In this document: piece after piece, positions 2,743 through 51,561 of the stretch
Numbering within the stretch: position 1 is the first letter of the stretch
How the letters are laid out: every line of letters begins with the position of its first letter
Translations under genes and position numbers: made by a program
The notes under the pieces: model-generated
The model's input: the letters and a program-made list of their open reading frames with translations, nothing else
Database searches by the model: none
What the model was told of the DNA's origin: nothing
Origin: Bacteroidota bacterium
GTDB lineage: Bacteria > Bacteroidota > Bacteroidia > Chitinophagales > Chitinophagaceae
DNA: 64,000 nucleotides
Assembly: GCA_005884665.1 (NCBI GenBank)
Contig: VBAT01000019.1
Span: 68,496 to 132,495, forward strand
Direction of reading: 5' to 3'

Positions 2743-5700
2743 TTATCGTACAAGGGTGATCGAACCTTTCAGGTCAACCGTTCTTCCATCGGATAAGGTC
2801 GCTTTCAGGATATAGACATACACACCCACCGGTTGGGCATTTCCTTTATGTCTTCCATCCCAGCCCTGTAACTTGTTAGTGATGCTCGCGATCTGTTGTC
2901 CCCATTGATTAAAGATGCGCATATCGAGTTTATCAATGTAGTTGCCATAGACATACAGGATATCGTTTTTGCCATCACCATTCGGTGAGAATACGTTGGG
3001 CACAAACACATCTTTGTTAAGCGGCAATACAGTAATACGGTATTGTTGTGCAAGACCGGAACATCCATTGATATTAGGTGTAGCCGTTATCACAGCCGTT
3101 TTAGGTGCGTTGGTCCGGTTGATCGCGATAAATGAAGGAACAGTACCGATACCTGGTTCGGTCAAACCGATAGAAGGGTCGGAATTGGTCCAATGAACCT
3201 GCGAACCCGGTGTTGAGATGAAATTATATTCGGGAACAGTTGCTCCATCATAAACTGTAGTATCTGCTCTCACGCTTGATGTCGGAACAATATTCACTTC
3301 AAGAATAAAGCTGGCGCTGTCGGCACATTGACCTGCGTCAGGGGTGAATACGTAGAAACCGTTGACCATATTGTCAATGACAGCCGGGTTCCATGTACCA
3401 GTGACTCCATTTGTTGATGTCAGTGGCAATGTGGGCACAGAAGACCCAACGCAAACTGATTGGAAAGTTCCAAAGTTGAAAGCAGGTTCGAGAATGGGAT
3501 TTACCGTTACCGTAAATGTGAACGGCAACACGCATCCGCCGCCTGCTGCGGTGAATACATAAGTTCCGTTGGTTTGATTGTTTACAACGGCAGGATTCCA
3601 TGTACCGTTTATTCCATTATCGGACGTGCCGGGAAGTGTTGGTACGATTCCACCGGCGCAAATTGATAATGTATTACCAAAACTAAATACCGGTATCAGG
3701 TTTGGAGTTACAGTTACAGTGAATGTCACAGGTCCCGTTACGCACTGACCCGCGGTCGGGGTGAATGTATATGTAGCCGGGTTTTGATTATCTACCACGG
3801 CCGGGCTCCATGTGCCCGTTATTCCATTCGTTGATGTTGTAGGCAGAGTTGGTACAGTTCCCCCTGCACAAATAGTAAGTGTTGTTCCAAAGCTGAACGC
3901 AGGAGTAAGATTTGGATTAACCGTAACATTAAATGTCGTCGGCAATGCGCAGACTCCCGATGTTGGTGTAAATGTATAAGTGCCGGAGTTTTGATCGTCT
4001 ACCACAGCCGGATTCCAGGTGCCAGTTATTCCATTCTGTGACGTACCGGGTAATACTGGTACAGATCCACCTGCACAAATGGTCAATGTAGTTCCAAAGC
4101 TGAATGTTGGTGTGATATTCGGATTAACGGTTACTGTAAATGTTATGGGTACTGCACATTGACCCGCTGTCGGGGTAAATGTATAAGTACCGGAATTTTG
4201 ATTATTAACTGTTGAAGGACTCCATGTACCTGTAATACCATTGTCAGATGGTGTATACAGGGTAGGTACCGAACCACCTGCACAAATGGTTAATGTAGTT
4301 CCGAAACTGAATGTCGGTGTAACGATCGGATTAACGGTTACTGTAAATGTTGTTGGTACTGCGCATTGACCTGCTGTTGGCGTAAATGTATATGTACCGG
4401 AATTCTGGTTATCTACTACAGATGGGCTCCAGGTTCCGTTTATGCCGTTTATGGATGTAGTGGGAAGGATCGGCACATTTCCACCGGTACAGATTGACAA
4501 TGTTGTCCCGAAACTGAATGTTGGTGTAAGGTTCGGGTTGACAGTTACCGTGAATGTTGCCGGCAAAGCACATTGGCCCGCTGTTGGTGTGAATGTATAA
4601 ACACCGGAATTCTGGTCGTCAACCACTGCGGGATTCCAGGTTCCCGTAATGCCATTCTGTGATGTACCAGGCAGTGTTGGAACGGTTCCGCCCGCACAAA
4701 TGGTCAATGTCGTTCCAAAACTGAATGAAGGTGTGATATTGGGGTTAACAGTCACCGTGAAACTAAATGGTAAAGCACATTGTCCCGCAGTCGGTGTGAA
4801 TGTATACGTACCAGTACTCGTGTTGCTTACTACCGAAGGACTCCATGTACCGGTGATACCATTATCGGATGTTGTGGGTAAGCCGGGTACTGAACCTCCC
4901 GAACAGATCGTCATGTCACCAAAGCTGAAGGTTGGAGTAACATTTGGATTAACGGTTACTGTAAATGTTACCGGCACTGCGCATTGACCTGCCGATGGCG
5001 TAAATGTATAAACGGCCGAGTTCTGGTTATCTACTGCCGAAGGACTCCAGGTTCCCGTGATACCATTCTGTGATGTGCCAACAAGAGTAGGAACGATTCC
5101 ACCCGCGCATATTGTCAATGTTGTTCCGAAACTGAATGTTGGTGTAATATTCGGGACGACAGTCACTGTAAATGTTGCTGGCAATGCACATTGGCCTGCA
5201 TCAGGAGTAAATGTGTATGTACCCGAGTTCTGATTATCTACCACGCCTGGATTCCAGGTGCCGGTGATACCATTAAGTGATGTGTTTGGTAAAACTGGAA
5301 CAGTTCCGCCCGCGCAAATGATCAATGATGTTCCAAAACTGAATGTCGGTGTTATTTTCGGGTTGACTGTTACAGTAAATGAAAAAGGCAACGCACAAAG
5401 ACCAGCGGTAGGAGTAAACGTGTATGTACCCGAACTGGTGTTGCTGACAACCGAAGGACTCCATGTGCCGGTAACGCCGTTATCAGATGTTGTTGGCAGG
5501 GTTGGCACCGAACCTCCTGAACAGATGGTCATATCTCCGAAGCTGAATGTGGGTATCACATTCGGGTTGACGGTTACGCTGAATGTTGTTGGCACCGCGC
5601 ATTGGCCTGCTCCCGGTGTAAATGTATAAGTACCCGAGTTCTGGTTATCTACAACAGAAGGGCTCCAGGTCCCGGTGATACCATTTTGCGATGTACCCGG

Positions 5701-7035
5701 TAATGTTGGAACATTGCCACCGGCGCAAATGATCAGTGTTGTACCAAAACTAAACGTTGGTGTGATATTCGGGTTGACGGTTACGGTAAACGTTGCCGGG
5801 TTTGCACATTGTCCCGCATTCGGTGTGAATGTATAAACGCCGGAATTATGATTGTCCACTACAGCCGGGTTCCAGGTTCCTGTAAAACCATTGGTCGAAG
5901 TGTTCGGCAGAGTTGGTACAGTTCCATTATCACATATTATGAGGCTTGTTCCAAATGGGAATGTAGGCGTCGCCCTTGGTATTACCGTTACAGTAATAGT
6001 GATGGGAAATCCGCACGTATTGGCGTCAGGTGTAAATGTATAAGTGCCGGTAGCATTATTGTTGATGACGGCCGGGTTCCAGGTTCCGGTCATGCCATTA
6101 TTCGATACAGATGGTAATAACGGGGCCGGTGTTCCCTGGCAGAATGGGGGGATCGGAGTGAATGTGGGCACGAATATCGGGTCTGATAAAATGATACCCG
6201 TAAACAGGTTGGTCGTACAACCGTTGATCACCAGCACAAAATTAGAATAGAACCCTTTGTTCAATCCTGTTAAAACGAGTTGACCTGAAGCATTAGCTGT
6301 CAATGTAAGCGGACCGACATTGACGCCATCGTCTGTATAGCTCAATTGATAAGTAAAACCGGGTACAAGACCACCGATCGTAATCGAACCTTCGTTCCCG
6401 AAACAGGAAGAAGGGTTAGTGCTTGAAAGATTAGGCGATTGAATAGAGAAATAAGCCTTGTAGTTGCCACCCCCATTATTATCTGTTACGATTTCATTGC
6501 AGAGTGATGTGCTTGACTGCGATCCTGAAGCTTCATAATAAACTTCCAGTACATAGTTCCCGGCAGCAAATGTTGTCAGGTTGATATTGGAATTGAGACG
6601 GTCCCATTTCTGGTCGCCATCCACGCAAGTTCCACCGGAAGGATAGGTACCACTTCCGCCATTGCAGGTTTCAAGGAGTGGCAGGTTAATCGAAGTAAAA
6701 GCGCCGGGAGCGCCACTTTGCAAATACACGCGGTAAAACATTCTTGCACTGCACGCACTCGAAGAAGCAGGGTTTTTAAATGTTTTGACCTGCGCGCCGC
6801 GAAGGATAAGTGAGCCCGAGTTTTGTGTATGGGCGCCAAAATTCGTATTGTTAAACACATTGCCGGAAGGCCCAATGAGATCAGCCGGGTTTCCTGATGT
6901 GTTGTAATAATTACTTTGATTGCAATCCGTGACCCATGCTGCTGTAGCTTTGATCCCAAATTGGGCTTGTGCATGGTTGCAGAAAAATAATAGCAGAGTA
7001 ATTCCTGCAAGGAAATTTCGGTAGGTGGCTTTCAT
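2743..7035 (-). CDS. Giant T9SS type B-sorted repeat protein (14 Ig-like modules, CHU_C C-terminus)
   Basis: A 1430-residue secreted protein. Residues 1-24 form a signal peptide (LLLFFCNHAQAQ). An N-terminal domain of about 200 residues follows, then a short linker domain. About 14 tandem modules of 68-70 residues fill residues ~288-1251, each with two cysteines (ICAGG and GQCA), a central GITGTW(S/N)P and ending FTVTVNPN. After a spacer, the C-terminal ~90 residues (DVFVPNVFSPNGDGKND ... NQWGQQI ... GVYVYILK) match the gliding-motility-associated CHU_C type B sorting domain. It is therefore probably exported by T9SS and held at or released from the cell surface. It heads an apparent operon with the PorP/SprF and PorE-like genes, resembling sprB-sprF. 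Adhesin function is inference; no catalytic domain was recognised. Confidence 0.92.
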   Translation of the reverse strand: MKATYRNFLAGITLLLFFCNHAQAQFGIKATAAWVTDCNQSNYYNTSGNPADLIGPSGNVFNNTNFGAHTQNSGSLILRGAQVKTFKNPASSSACSARMFYRVYLQSGAPGAFTSINLPLLETCNGGSGTYPSGGTCVDGDQKWDRLNSNINLTTFAAGNYVLEVYYEASGSQSSTSLCNEIVTDNNGGGNYKAYFSIQSPNLSSTNPSSCFGNEGSITIGGLVPGFTYQLSYTDDGVNVGPLTLTANASGQLVLTGLNKGFYSNFVLVINGCTTNLFTGIILSDPIFVPTFTPIPPFCQGTPAPLLPSVSNNGMTGTWNPAVINNNATGTYTFTPDANTCGFPITITVTVIPRATPTFPFGTSLIICDNGTVPTLPNTSTNGFTGTWNPAVVDNHNSGVYTFTPNAGQCANPATFTVTVNPNITPTFSFGTTLIICAGGNVPTLPGTSQNGITGTWSPSVVDNQNSGTYTFTPGAGQCAVPTTFSVTVNPNVIPTFSFGDMTICSGGSVPTLPTTSDNGVTGTWSPSVVSNTSSGTYTFTPTAGLCALPFSFTVTVNPKITPTFSFGTSLIICAGGTVPVLPNTSLNGITGTWNPGVVDNQNSGTYTFTPDAGQCALPATFTVTVVPNITPTFSFGTTLTICAGGIVPTLVGTSQNGITGTWSPSAVDNQNSAVYTFTPSAGQCAVPVTFTVTVNPNVTPTFSFGDMTICSGGSVPGLPTTSDNGITGTWSPSVVSNTSTGTYTFTPTAGQCALPFSFTVTVNPNITPSFSFGTTLTICAGGTVPTLPGTSQNGITGTWNPAVVDDQNSGVYTFTPTAGQCALPATFTVTVNPNLTPTFSFGTTLSICTGGNVPILPTTSINGINGTWSPSVVDNQNSGTYTFTPTAGQCAVPTTFTVTVNPIVTPTFSFGTTLTICAGGSVPTLYTPSDNGITGTWSPSTVNNQNSGTYTFTPTAGQCAVPITFTVTVNPNITPTFSFGTTLTICAGGSVPVLPGTSQNGITGTWNPAVVDDQNSGTYTFTPTSGVCALPTTFNVTVNPNLTPAFSFGTTLTICAGGTVPTLPTTSTNGITGTWSPAVVDNQNPATYTFTPTAGQCVTGPVTFTVTVTPNLIPVFSFGNTLSICAGGIVPTLPGTSDNGINGTWNPAVVNNQTNGTYVFTAAGGGCVLPFTFTVTVNPILEPAFNFGTFQSVCVGSSVPTLPLTSTNGVTGTWNPAVIDNMVNGFYVFTPDAGQCADSASFILEVNIVPTSSVRADTTVYDGATVPEYNFISTPGSQVHWTNSDPSIGLTEPGIGTVPSFIAINRTNAPKTAVITATPNINGCSGLAQQYRITVLPLNKDVFVPNVFSPNGDGKNDILYVYGNYIDKLDMRIFNQWGQQIASITNKLQGWDGRHKGNAQPVGVYVYILKATLSDGRTVDLKGSITLVR
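3283..6174 (-). repeat. Tandem ~207-bp coding repeats (14 units) within the giant T9SS protein
   Basis: Fourteen in-frame units of 204-210 bp encode the modules of residues ~288-1251. The internal twelve are the most alike; the first and last two are more divergent. Two units (4th and 7th) are one codon shorter and share FGDMTICSGG. The units differ at many synonymous sites, so the array is not freshly amplified. Module features recur with a period of three (see findings). Confidence 0.9.
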
Positions 7036-10343: not shown

Positions 10344-10487
10344 AAGAACCAATCCCGCCAACTGGCGGGACAAGAAGCGAAGAACCAAAGAAACAACAAA
10401 TTCAAATATTTAAACAGAAGCTTCCAATTCCATGGTTTGAGTTTTTTGATTTGGAGCTTATTTGGTTCTTGGCATCTTGGTTCTTGG
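10344..10487 (-). repeat. TTGGTTCTTG interspersed element, copy A (with nested palindrome)
   Basis: Read on the reverse strand, this ~144-bp segment aligns with the copy at 29168-29303 over nearly its whole length (AAGCTCCAA...; GGAATTGGAAGCT; CTGTTTAA; TTTCTTTGGTTCTT). Both ends carry AAGAACCAA / TTGGTTCTTGG in inverted orientation, so the transcript could form a long imperfect hairpin. An 18-bp palindrome TCCCGCC-AACT-GGCGGGA (10353-10370) is nested in one arm, at the same place as in the copy at 51420. Confidence 0.8.
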
Positions 10488-13140: not shown

Positions 13141-13212
13141 ATTATTAATTAAGAATTGTAAATGAGGAAGGGTTTACAGTGTAGGGTTATTTTCAAACGT
13201 TGAGAGGTCATT

Positions 13213-13252
13213 CACCATTGACCTCCCGATAGCCGTCGGGACACCATTGACC
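13213..13252. repeat. 18-bp palindrome bounded by exact 11-bp direct repeats
   Basis: CACCATTGACC (13213-13223), then the palindrome TCCCGAT-AGCC-GTCGGGA (13224-13241), then CACCATTGACC again (13242-13252), with no spare base on either side. It lies in the gap between the sigma-54 activator and lepB. Confidence 0.9.
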
Positions 13253-13301
13253 GGGATTAAAGGACCGCCTGCCGTCTTTTGCAAAACTTTCCGATATATA
13301 A

Positions 13302-13352: not shown

Positions 13353-14891
13353 ATGCCATTACACGATTTACTCATTATCTATCTCATCGGTACTTTACTT
13401 GTTTTCCTTCCTTCGTTTGGACTGGCAAAGCTGTTTACCAGGGTAGGCGTGCCCGCCTGGAAAGCATACGTTCCTTTTTATAATACATGGGTGATGCAGG
13501 ATATTGCCAAAAGACCGAAACATTGGGTATTCTGGCAATTCATTCCCGTGGTTGGATGGTTTATTACCCCCGGTATATTTATTGAATTCGCCAAAGTGTT
13601 TGGTGTATTCTCGCTACGCCAGCATACAATGGCCTCCCTGTTTGCTTTCCTTTATTTTCCCTGGCTGGCAAGTAGACCAACAACCAAATTCATCGGTGCG
13701 GAGGCTGTGAAGAAACACAAGAAAAAAAGCTGGAGAGAATGGGTGGATGCAGCCATATTCGCCGTTGTTGCCGCCACCTTAATCCGGACATTTATTTTCG
13801 AGGCCTATACAATCCCTTCCGGCTCTATGGAAAAAACCCTGCTGATACGGGATTTTCTTTTTGTCAGCAAACTGAGCTACGGACCCAGGATACCGAATAC
13901 GCCTTTATCATTTCCTTTTGTTCATAATTATCTACCCATTGTAAATACTAAATCTTATTCTGAGCTGATCAAGCTTCCTTATGTCCGTTGGTTCCCCTCA
14001 TCGCCGAAACGTGGAGATGTTGTAGTATTCAATTTTCCCGCGGGAGATACAGTGATCCATGCCGAAAATTTTGAATCGCAGAATCCATATATAGATATCA
14101 AAAGAAGGGCCCTTAGAGGGTCCGCCGAAGACCAGGGTTACCTGGCCGATCCTGTCAACTATCCGATAGTCGTTCACCCGGTTGATAAAACGGATAATTA
14201 TATAAAACGCTGCGTCGGTGTTTCCGGTGACACTATCCAGGTAAAGGACGACGTGGTATATGCGAATGGCCAAAGACAGGAACTTGCTCCTTCCTCGGAA
14301 ATCAATTACCTGGTAACTGTATCCACGCAGTTCTTTGATCCTGATGTTATGAAAAAAGAATACGATGTGGATTTTGATAAAGGCGAATACGTGGGAATGG
14401 GAAACAATGTATACAGGATGTTGCTTACACGAACGGCAAAGGACAAAATGCTGGCCAACGGGTTTGCCAAAAACATTGTGGTAGATTCTACTTATATGGG
14501 CGGCGGCGGAGAGGTGTTCCCTTATGATAATGTCGGCGGTCATGAAAAATGGGGCCGCGAAAACTTCGGACCTGTATGGGTGCCCAGGAAAGGCGGTACT
14601 GTTGTATTGACACCCGAAAATTATGGTATCTACGAACGCGCGATTCGCATTTATGAGAAAAATGATTTCTACCAGGGCAATGGCAAATTCTACCTGAACG
14701 ACAAAGAAGTTACCCAATACACTTTCAAAATGGATTATTACTGGATGATGGGAGATAACAGGCAGGGATCACAGGACTCCAGGTATTGGGGTTTTGTCCC
14801 CGAAGACCGGATTGTAGGTAAAGCCTGGATGATCTGGTTCAGTTGGGATAAAGGACCGAGATGGAAAAGGCTTTTTAAGATCGTTAGATAA
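13353..14891 (+). CDS. lepB: Signal peptidase I with N-terminal membrane extension and large insert
   Basis: 512 residues, about twice the length of a basic Gram-positive SPase I. Residues 1-110 hold several hydrophobic segments of a DUF5684-like kind. The catalytic part starts with a further membrane helix (AIFAVVAATLIRTFIFEAY), the serine box IPSGSME (Ser158), the lysine box YIKRCVGVSGD (Lys285), and the C-terminal MGDNRQGSQDSRYWG (from 466). About 180 residues separate the lysine and GDNR boxes. Such insertions are familiar in Bacteroidota SPases. It removes signal peptides from exported proteins at the inner membrane and would serve the many secreted products encoded here. It ends 46 bp before cdd and may be cotranscribed with it. 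Confidence 0.95.
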   Translation: MPLHDLLIIYLIGTLLVFLPSFGLAKLFTRVGVPAWKAYVPFYNTWVMQDIAKRPKHWVFWQFIPVVGWFITPGIFIEFAKVFGVFSLRQHTMASLFAFLYFPWLASRPTTKFIGAEAVKKHKKKSWREWVDAAIFAVVAATLIRTFIFEAYTIPSGSMEKTLLIRDFLFVSKLSYGPRIPNTPLSFPFVHNYLPIVNTKSYSELIKLPYVRWFPSSPKRGDVVVFNFPAGDTVIHAENFESQNPYIDIKRRALRGSAEDQGYLADPVNYPIVVHPVDKTDNYIKRCVGVSGDTIQVKDDVVYANGQRQELAPSSEINYLVTVSTQFFDPDVMKKEYDVDFDKGEYVGMGNNVYRMLLTRTAKDKMLANGFAKNIVVDSTYMGGGGEVFPYDNVGGHEKWGRENFGPVWVPRKGGTVVLTPENYGIYERAIRIYEKNDFYQGNGKFYLNDKEVTQYTFKMDYYWMMGDNRQGSQDSRYWGFVPEDRIVGKAWMIWFSWDKGPRWKRLFKIVR

Positions 14892-29167: not shown

Positions 29168-29303
29168 CAAGAACCAGGAAACAAGAACCATCCCGATAGC
29201 TATCGGGAAAGCTCCAAGCAAAAAATCTAAAAATCGGAATTGGAAGCTCCTGTTTAAGTTTTATAATTTTTAATTTCTTTGGTTCTTGTATCTTGGTTCT
29301 TGG
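29168..29303 (+). repeat. TTGGTTCTTG interspersed element, copy B (with nested palindrome)
   Basis: Begins CAAGAACCAGG and ends TCTTGGTTCTTGG, so the ends are inverted. The middle GGAATTGGAAGCTCCTGTTTAAG matches copy A on its reverse strand. The nested palindrome TCCCGAT-AGCT-ATCGGGA (29191-29208) sits in the left arm here, between AAGAACCA and AAGCTCCA, whereas the other copies carry theirs in the opposite arm. It fills nearly the whole gap between the ferredoxin and KdsC genes. Confidence 0.85.
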
Positions 29304-51419: not shown

Positions 51420-51561
51420 AAGAACCAAGAACCAAAAAAGCTTCAAATCAGAAACTAAAGTCAAAAAGTTGTATCGGAGGACTCAGTTTTTGAGTATTGT
51501 GATTTATAATTTTTATTTTATTTGGTTATTGTCCCGCCAGTTGGCGGGATTGGTTCTCTTG
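51420..51561 (+). repeat. TTGGTTCTTG interspersed element, copy C (with nested palindrome)
   Basis: Begins AAAGAACCAAGAACCAA and ends TTGGTTATTG-TCCCGCC-AGTT-GGCGGGA-TTGGTTCTCTTG. The palindrome (51532-51549) is identical to that in copy A read on the reverse strand and occupies the same place in the element. The middle is more diverged than copies A and B but keeps AAGCTTCAAATCA and ATTTATAATTTTTATTTTATTTGG. Confidence 0.8.

Follow-up and report, generated by a model that had tools for sequence, protein, structure and literature searches.

The nearest described counterparts of the 18-nt hairpin family reported here are presumably the small dispersed repeats (SDR) that cyanobacteria carry in heptameric arrays. 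In Nostoc, as Elhai et al. are said to have described in 2008, SDR are very short, hairpin-forming and dispersed, often lie within heptameric tandem repeats and were inferred to be mobile; cyanobacterial SDR reportedly measure 21-27 nt and fall into eight sequence families. A tiny hairpin in heptameric repeats is also what we find here, in the form of an excess at offset 10/11 and of arrays of period 7 and 14, but in another phylum and with another sequence, the element being 18 nt long and its named carriers Bacteroidota. The palindromic elements of Rickettsia are likewise short dispersed palindromes, of about 100-150 bp, known for their insertion in coding genes; the present hairpin differs from them in measuring 18 bp and in residing mostly in non-coding DNA.

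Two papers cite SDR as possibly mobile repeats of ~20 bp (PMC2884548; PMC3116915). REP and REPIN sequences with RAYT (TnpA_REP) include a Bacteroidetes subclass, 2.6, with atypical REPs (PMC6006769), and resemble the family studied here in being high-copy intergenic palindromes; the latter, however, has neither a tag tetranucleotide nor, in the genome under study, an association with Y1 genes, and its flanks display a loss of 3 nt. Another likeness is to the GC clusters of yeast mitochondria, which are short, GC-rich, palindromic mobile elements with no known mobiliser and have a fixed AG or ACT direct repeat at their flanks (PMC4478555), whereas most of the hairpin sites outside arrays have lost 3-4 nt. 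Finally, heptameric simple sequence repeats form over-represented intergenic arrays in Xanthomonas and Nostoc, and the accessible part of that study reports no hairpin element inside them (PMC4692102). The exact 18-mer had no match in the open literature searched.

The 18-mer considered here is probably one copy of an ultra-short, high-copy, non-autonomous, mobile-like hairpin element of Bacteroidota that typically replaces 3 bp, and sometimes 4, of its target. Such an element would have no gene of its own, and its entry would swap out the 3 (or 4) target bases for a net gain of 15 (or 14) bp. The site lies at positions 13213-13252 of the window, by which we mean the whole 64-kb stretch of DNA analysed, in the following surroundings.

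10353-10370, no strand given: family member TCCCGCCAACTGGCGGGA, in AAGAACC-like heptads, with flanks CAA/CAA
11980-13140, + strand: NtrC-like response regulator (Response_reg and Sigma54_activat), the upstream neighbour
13208-13223, + strand: period-7 array TCATTCACCATTGACC, left of the hairpin
13208-13251, + strand: composite unit of 44 bp, consisting of the hairpin with heptads on both sides and recurring in the same genome at G000:C15:184382 and C5:2859 (89% identity)
13213-13223, + strand: left direct repeat CACCATTGACC, corresponding to 4+7 bases of the heptad array
13224-13241, no strand given: 18-bp hairpin element TCCCGATAGCCGTCGGGA, with six perfect pairs, a seventh T/G pair and a 4-nt loop
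13242-13252, + strand: right direct repeat CACCATTGACC, whose TTGACC(G) aligns to a genus-conserved TTNACCG-like motif
13271-13290, + strand: conserved block GCCGTCTTTTGCAAAACTTT upstream of lepB, undisrupted in 6/6 genus relatives
13353-14891, + strand: signal peptidase I (lepB; Peptidase_S26), the downstream neighbour
29191-29208, no strand given: family member TCCCGATAGCTATCGGGA, in AAGAACC-like heptads
51532-51549, no strand given: family member TCCCGCCAGTTGGCGGGA, with flanks TTG/TTG

An earlier note on this DNA had described an 18-bp palindrome abutted by exact direct repeats of 11 bp with no spare base on either side, and the order repeat, 18-mer, repeat is precisely what the sequence holds; CACCATTGACC is absent from the rest of the window. 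The 7-4-7 form ascribed to the palindrome stands for the outer 6+6 bases, which pair perfectly, but the seventh pair is T/G, a G-U wobble in RNA, and the palindrome is thus imperfect. In its RNA form the hairpin is stable. The tally of four other such 18-mers in the window proved one too high, as TCCCG-N8-CGGGA occurs four times with the present copy included (10353, 13224, 29191 and 51532; 0.03 expected from shuffles), leaving three others. That the palindrome is not a one-off was nonetheless amply borne out by the genome at large (5.70 Mb in 124 contigs), with 135 copies of TCCCG-N8-CGGGA against one for the reversed control. Two cores, TCCCGATAGCTATCGGGA and TCCCGCCAATTGGCGGGA-like, dominated among the copies read. 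Only 8 of 59 copies lay inside open reading frames of 150 or more residues, compared to 82% of random positions. Non-coding DNA holds most of the family, and tandem repeats, namely heptad arrays and partial tRNA-gene duplicates, are strongly over-represented among its sites.

The genome is rich in arrays, period-7 runs numbering 42 and period-14 runs 57 against 2 and 3, respectively, in a Markov control. The window also harbors, at 3746-5877, a 207-bp tandem repeat of ~10 copies with 69% identity that is possibly coding. Flanking repeats were scored over 2.05 of the 5.70 Mb, a portion in which 66 of the 135 TCCCG-N8-CGGGA copies were read. Around the 87 family copies therein, exact direct repeats were in excess, as a comparison proposed in the earlier note had anticipated, at lengths of 3 bp (14 vs 3.2 expected), 4 bp (4 vs 0.7), 10 bp (3 vs 0.09 with re-paired flanks) and 11 bp (1 vs 0.02), and none was found at 7 nt. 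Similarly, array-like flanks were seen at offset 10/11 in 8 cases (0.95 expected) and at offset 7/14 in none. The window shuffles, the genome count against its control and this excess of flanking repeats together rule out a chance origin.

An excess at 3, 4, 10 and 11 with none at 7 indicates that the 11-bp repeat is to be read as 4+7 and the 10-bp repeat as 3+7. The same 4+7 register recurs with unrelated heptads in two 11-bp cases, TCACGACTCAC in Lacibacter cauensis and GAAAGATGAAA in a Saprospiraceae MAG. Judging from the bases themselves, the 11-bp repeats of our site are units of a period-7/14 array (CACCATTGACC-ATT) in which the hairpin appears to stand for one ATT. The target would have been an array of (CACCATTGACC-ATT)n heptads that precedes lepB; with one ATT replaced, the leftover units on either side would appear as exact 11-bp direct repeats. 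We infer that this 3-nt replacement took place at the site itself. Taken alone, the site is explained equally well by the duplication of 4 bp, by that of one ancestral unit (11 bp) and by the loss of 3 bp. In arrays of heptads, losing 3 nt looks the same as duplicating 4 nt (7-3=4), so that array sites mimic target duplications.

Because heptad arrays cannot tell the two apart, hairpin-free copies of the flanks of each hairpin were sought within 4 kb and read as ancestral sequence. Such local copies existed for 22 of 135 hairpins in named Bacteroidota (null, 3/675) and for 14 of 66 in the genome under study (null, 6/330). The bases present in the hairpin-free copy and missing from the filled site numbered 3 in 12 cases and 4 in 6, and a gap of 0, as expected of plain insertion, was never encountered among the hairpin-free local copies. 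In six cases, several of which lay in repeat arrays, the gap was negative (-1 to -4), and some pairs displayed losses of 5-10 nt or more, making 3 nt the mode rather than a law. A relative with a single-contig genome (G263) yielded replacements of the same kind, the bases replaced being GGC, GCT, GCA and TGC. Plain insertion with neither loss nor duplication was rejected on account of the absence of gap-0 pairs and of flank repeats at offset 7 or 14.

Comparison with six genus relatives provided a second view of the locus. Both the hairpin and the extra heptads were absent in 6/6, and the block TTNACCG...TTTTRCAAAACTTT downstream of the hairpin site was conserved. The relatives thus supply what the earlier note had suggested looking for, sites with a single flank and no palindrome, in that all six carry the downstream motif singly. 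Upstream of lepB, members of the genus possess two TTCACCG-like motifs ~22 bp apart followed by TTTTRCAAAACTTT (window 13246-13290; L046-L051), a pair that is possibly a regulator site. The hairpin and its heptads may have reached the site together as the 44-bp composite unit, of which partial or shorter matches were also found at C72:105724, C5:41961, C72:30653, C15:91058 and C51:95684. Hairpin copies that share a composite unit were not regarded as independent events.

Many of the hairpin-free counterparts turned out to be tRNA-gene duplicates. Partial tRNA copies bearing the hairpin adjoin intact tRNA-Ala, -Lys, -Arg, -Val, -Cys, -Asn, -Phe and -Thr genes, with the replaced bases falling in the D-loop, anticodon arm or T-loop (for instance TAGCTC[AGT -> hairpin]TGG); read by eye, some replacements exceeded 4 nt, reaching 9-17 nt in anticodon arms. 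Ten hairpins had a tRNA gene no more than 300 bp away (0.43 expected). At one locus (L036, G000:C15:80001-100000; 13466-13883), three copies in tandem come after a tRNA-Val gene; their anticodon arm is TCCCGACTACCAGTCGGGA, ARAGORN names them tRNA-Gly, and they look like tRNA-Val duplicates with the hairpin as anticodon arm. Another (L040, 8490-8580, - strand) has the 18-mer in a duplicate of tRNA-Phe, alongside a second and longer hairpin element (CCGTAGTTTTTCAACAC...GTGTTAGAAAAACAAGG). The tRNA-Pro locus of G263 contains a 98-bp duplicate carrying the hairpin. In two genomes that match G263 with 94-95% identity at another locus (G087 and G219), the alignment coordinates place one subject stretch against both tRNA-Pro copies of G263, a pattern that accords with one tRNA at their site and no duplicate and suggests that duplicate and hairpin were gained in the G263 lineage.

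Small GIY-YIG nuclease reading frames were noted between an intact tRNA gene and a hairpin-bearing 3' partial tRNA copy at two loci (L026, 11790-12380, - strand; L142, 12700-13200, - strand), with similar neighbors in L231, L267, L168 and L243. Near hairpins at tRNA loci, GIY-YIG genes numbered 4 against 0.25 expected and 6 against 1.45 expected. None was present in the 208 kb of G263 examined, which hold 30 hairpins. The nuclease was rejected as mobiliser, since it clusters at tRNA genes just as the hairpins do and is absent from these 208 kb. Among the Y1 and GIY-YIG candidates examined, no mobilising gene was found.

Within the bacterial family, 79 of 399 genomes carried exact TCCCGATAGCTATCGGGA, as did 33 of the 104 genera sampled, and the reversed control gave zero matches; copies per genome ranged from 0 to 100, with a wide spread inside single genera. 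Beyond the family, at least 118 stretches of GTDB genomes carry it. The 80 matches listed were all from Bacteroidota, bar one titled only 'uncultured bacterium', and included isolates of Flavobacterium, Mucilaginibacter, Algoriphagus, Aequorivita and Lacibacter. Among IMG/VR viral contigs, 37 stretches (L339-L375) likewise carry the exact 18-mer, which makes such contigs a possible vehicle for its spread. In a Cyclobacteriaceae MAG, one exact TCCCGATAGCTATCGGGA lies within an RNase P RNA (246 bits) that is complete in other respects (L178, 4440-4846, - strand).

How the hairpin arrives at its sites may be explained in several ways. Insertion by a conventional transposase with true target-site duplication, the length of which would be 4 bp for TTCACC heptads, 3 bp for CAAGAAC ones or 11 bp at our site, would account for the excess of 3- and 4-bp flanking repeats and for the single downstream motif of the relatives; it is unlikely, however, as readable ancestral sites lose 3-4 nt, the length of the duplication would need to vary by heptad, and the 4-nt copy is inseparable from a 3-nt loss in 7-nt arrays. 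The fixed-length duplication by which conventional transposons and MITEs are recognized was not found, the 18-mer mostly taking the place of 3-4 nt. The earlier note had offered two options, of which the second, an inserted palindrome dividing a tandem repeat, comes close to the evidence and the first, ordinary target duplication, lacks support as a general rule. A template switch, in which polymerase slippage in repeats would in a single event give rise to tandem duplicates (of heptads or tRNA genes) and bring a hairpin copied from another place into the new unit, would fit the co-occurrence of hairpin and tandem duplicate at many tRNA loci, the lack of both at the aligned sites of G263's relatives, and the restriction of both extra heptads and hairpin to the genome under study at our own site. 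The coupling of the hairpin with local duplication leaves room for this route, but we hold it to be a minority prospect, given that boundaries fixed at 18 bp and a loss with a mode of 3 nt throughout the phylum are more regular than one would expect of random switching. The same two regularities suggest a fixed-geometry enzyme acting on a hairpin intermediate, and we infer that an enzyme with a fixed geometry of ~3 nt performs the replacement.

A REP-like nature of the family, with movement by a REP-associated tyrosine (Y1) transposase, appears improbable. The family does consist of high-copy, mainly intergenic palindromes, the genome under study has three Y1 genes, and Y1 genes weakly track hairpin copy number, occurring in 27/29 high-copy vs 18/27 zero-copy genomes. 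Yet no family copy lies within 1.5 kb on either side of the three Y1 loci, the bases adjoining the 18-mer vary with no fixed tag of the GTAG/GTGG or CGTC type at a foot, two high-copy genomes (72% and 83% complete) lack a Y1 match, and many Y1 matches occur in each of several zero-copy genomes. Membership of the REP/RAYT class was rejected, two of its defining features, the foot tag and a cognate Y1 gene flanked by copies, being absent. More improbable still is a selected, non-mobile regulatory or RNA-processing hairpin (terminator, attenuator or protein-binding site): the exact 18-mer is conserved phylum-wide, its RNA form is stable and one copy lies in the transcript of an RNase P RNA, but copy number is sporadic within genera (0 to 100) and the contexts are diverse and unrelated. 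An intrinsic terminator is further countered at our site by the lack of a T-run after the hairpin, which is followed by CACCATTGACCGGG. No Rfam family reached its gathering score at the site, the sole sub-threshold match being elsewhere in the window.

The mobile-like element that typically replaces three bases is thus the reading we favor. A bolder and more speculative version of it, on which we would not yet rely, is that an unrecognised Bacteroidota activity substitutes the 18-nt hairpin for exactly three bases in a manner coupled to local tandem duplication of the target, so that throughout the phylum many tRNA genes come to have a duplicate interrupted by the hairpin beside them, and heptad arrays come to be divided by it. 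If the replacement of three bases by eighteen holds, the hairpin would rank among the smallest mobile-like elements known, and the loss of target bases would be an unusual signature pointing to a specific enzyme geometry. It would also explain a type of intergenic sequence that is widespread in Bacteroidota and tends to be overlooked, and the filled and empty sites, together with the tRNA duplicates, would provide a clear assay for finding the mobiliser.
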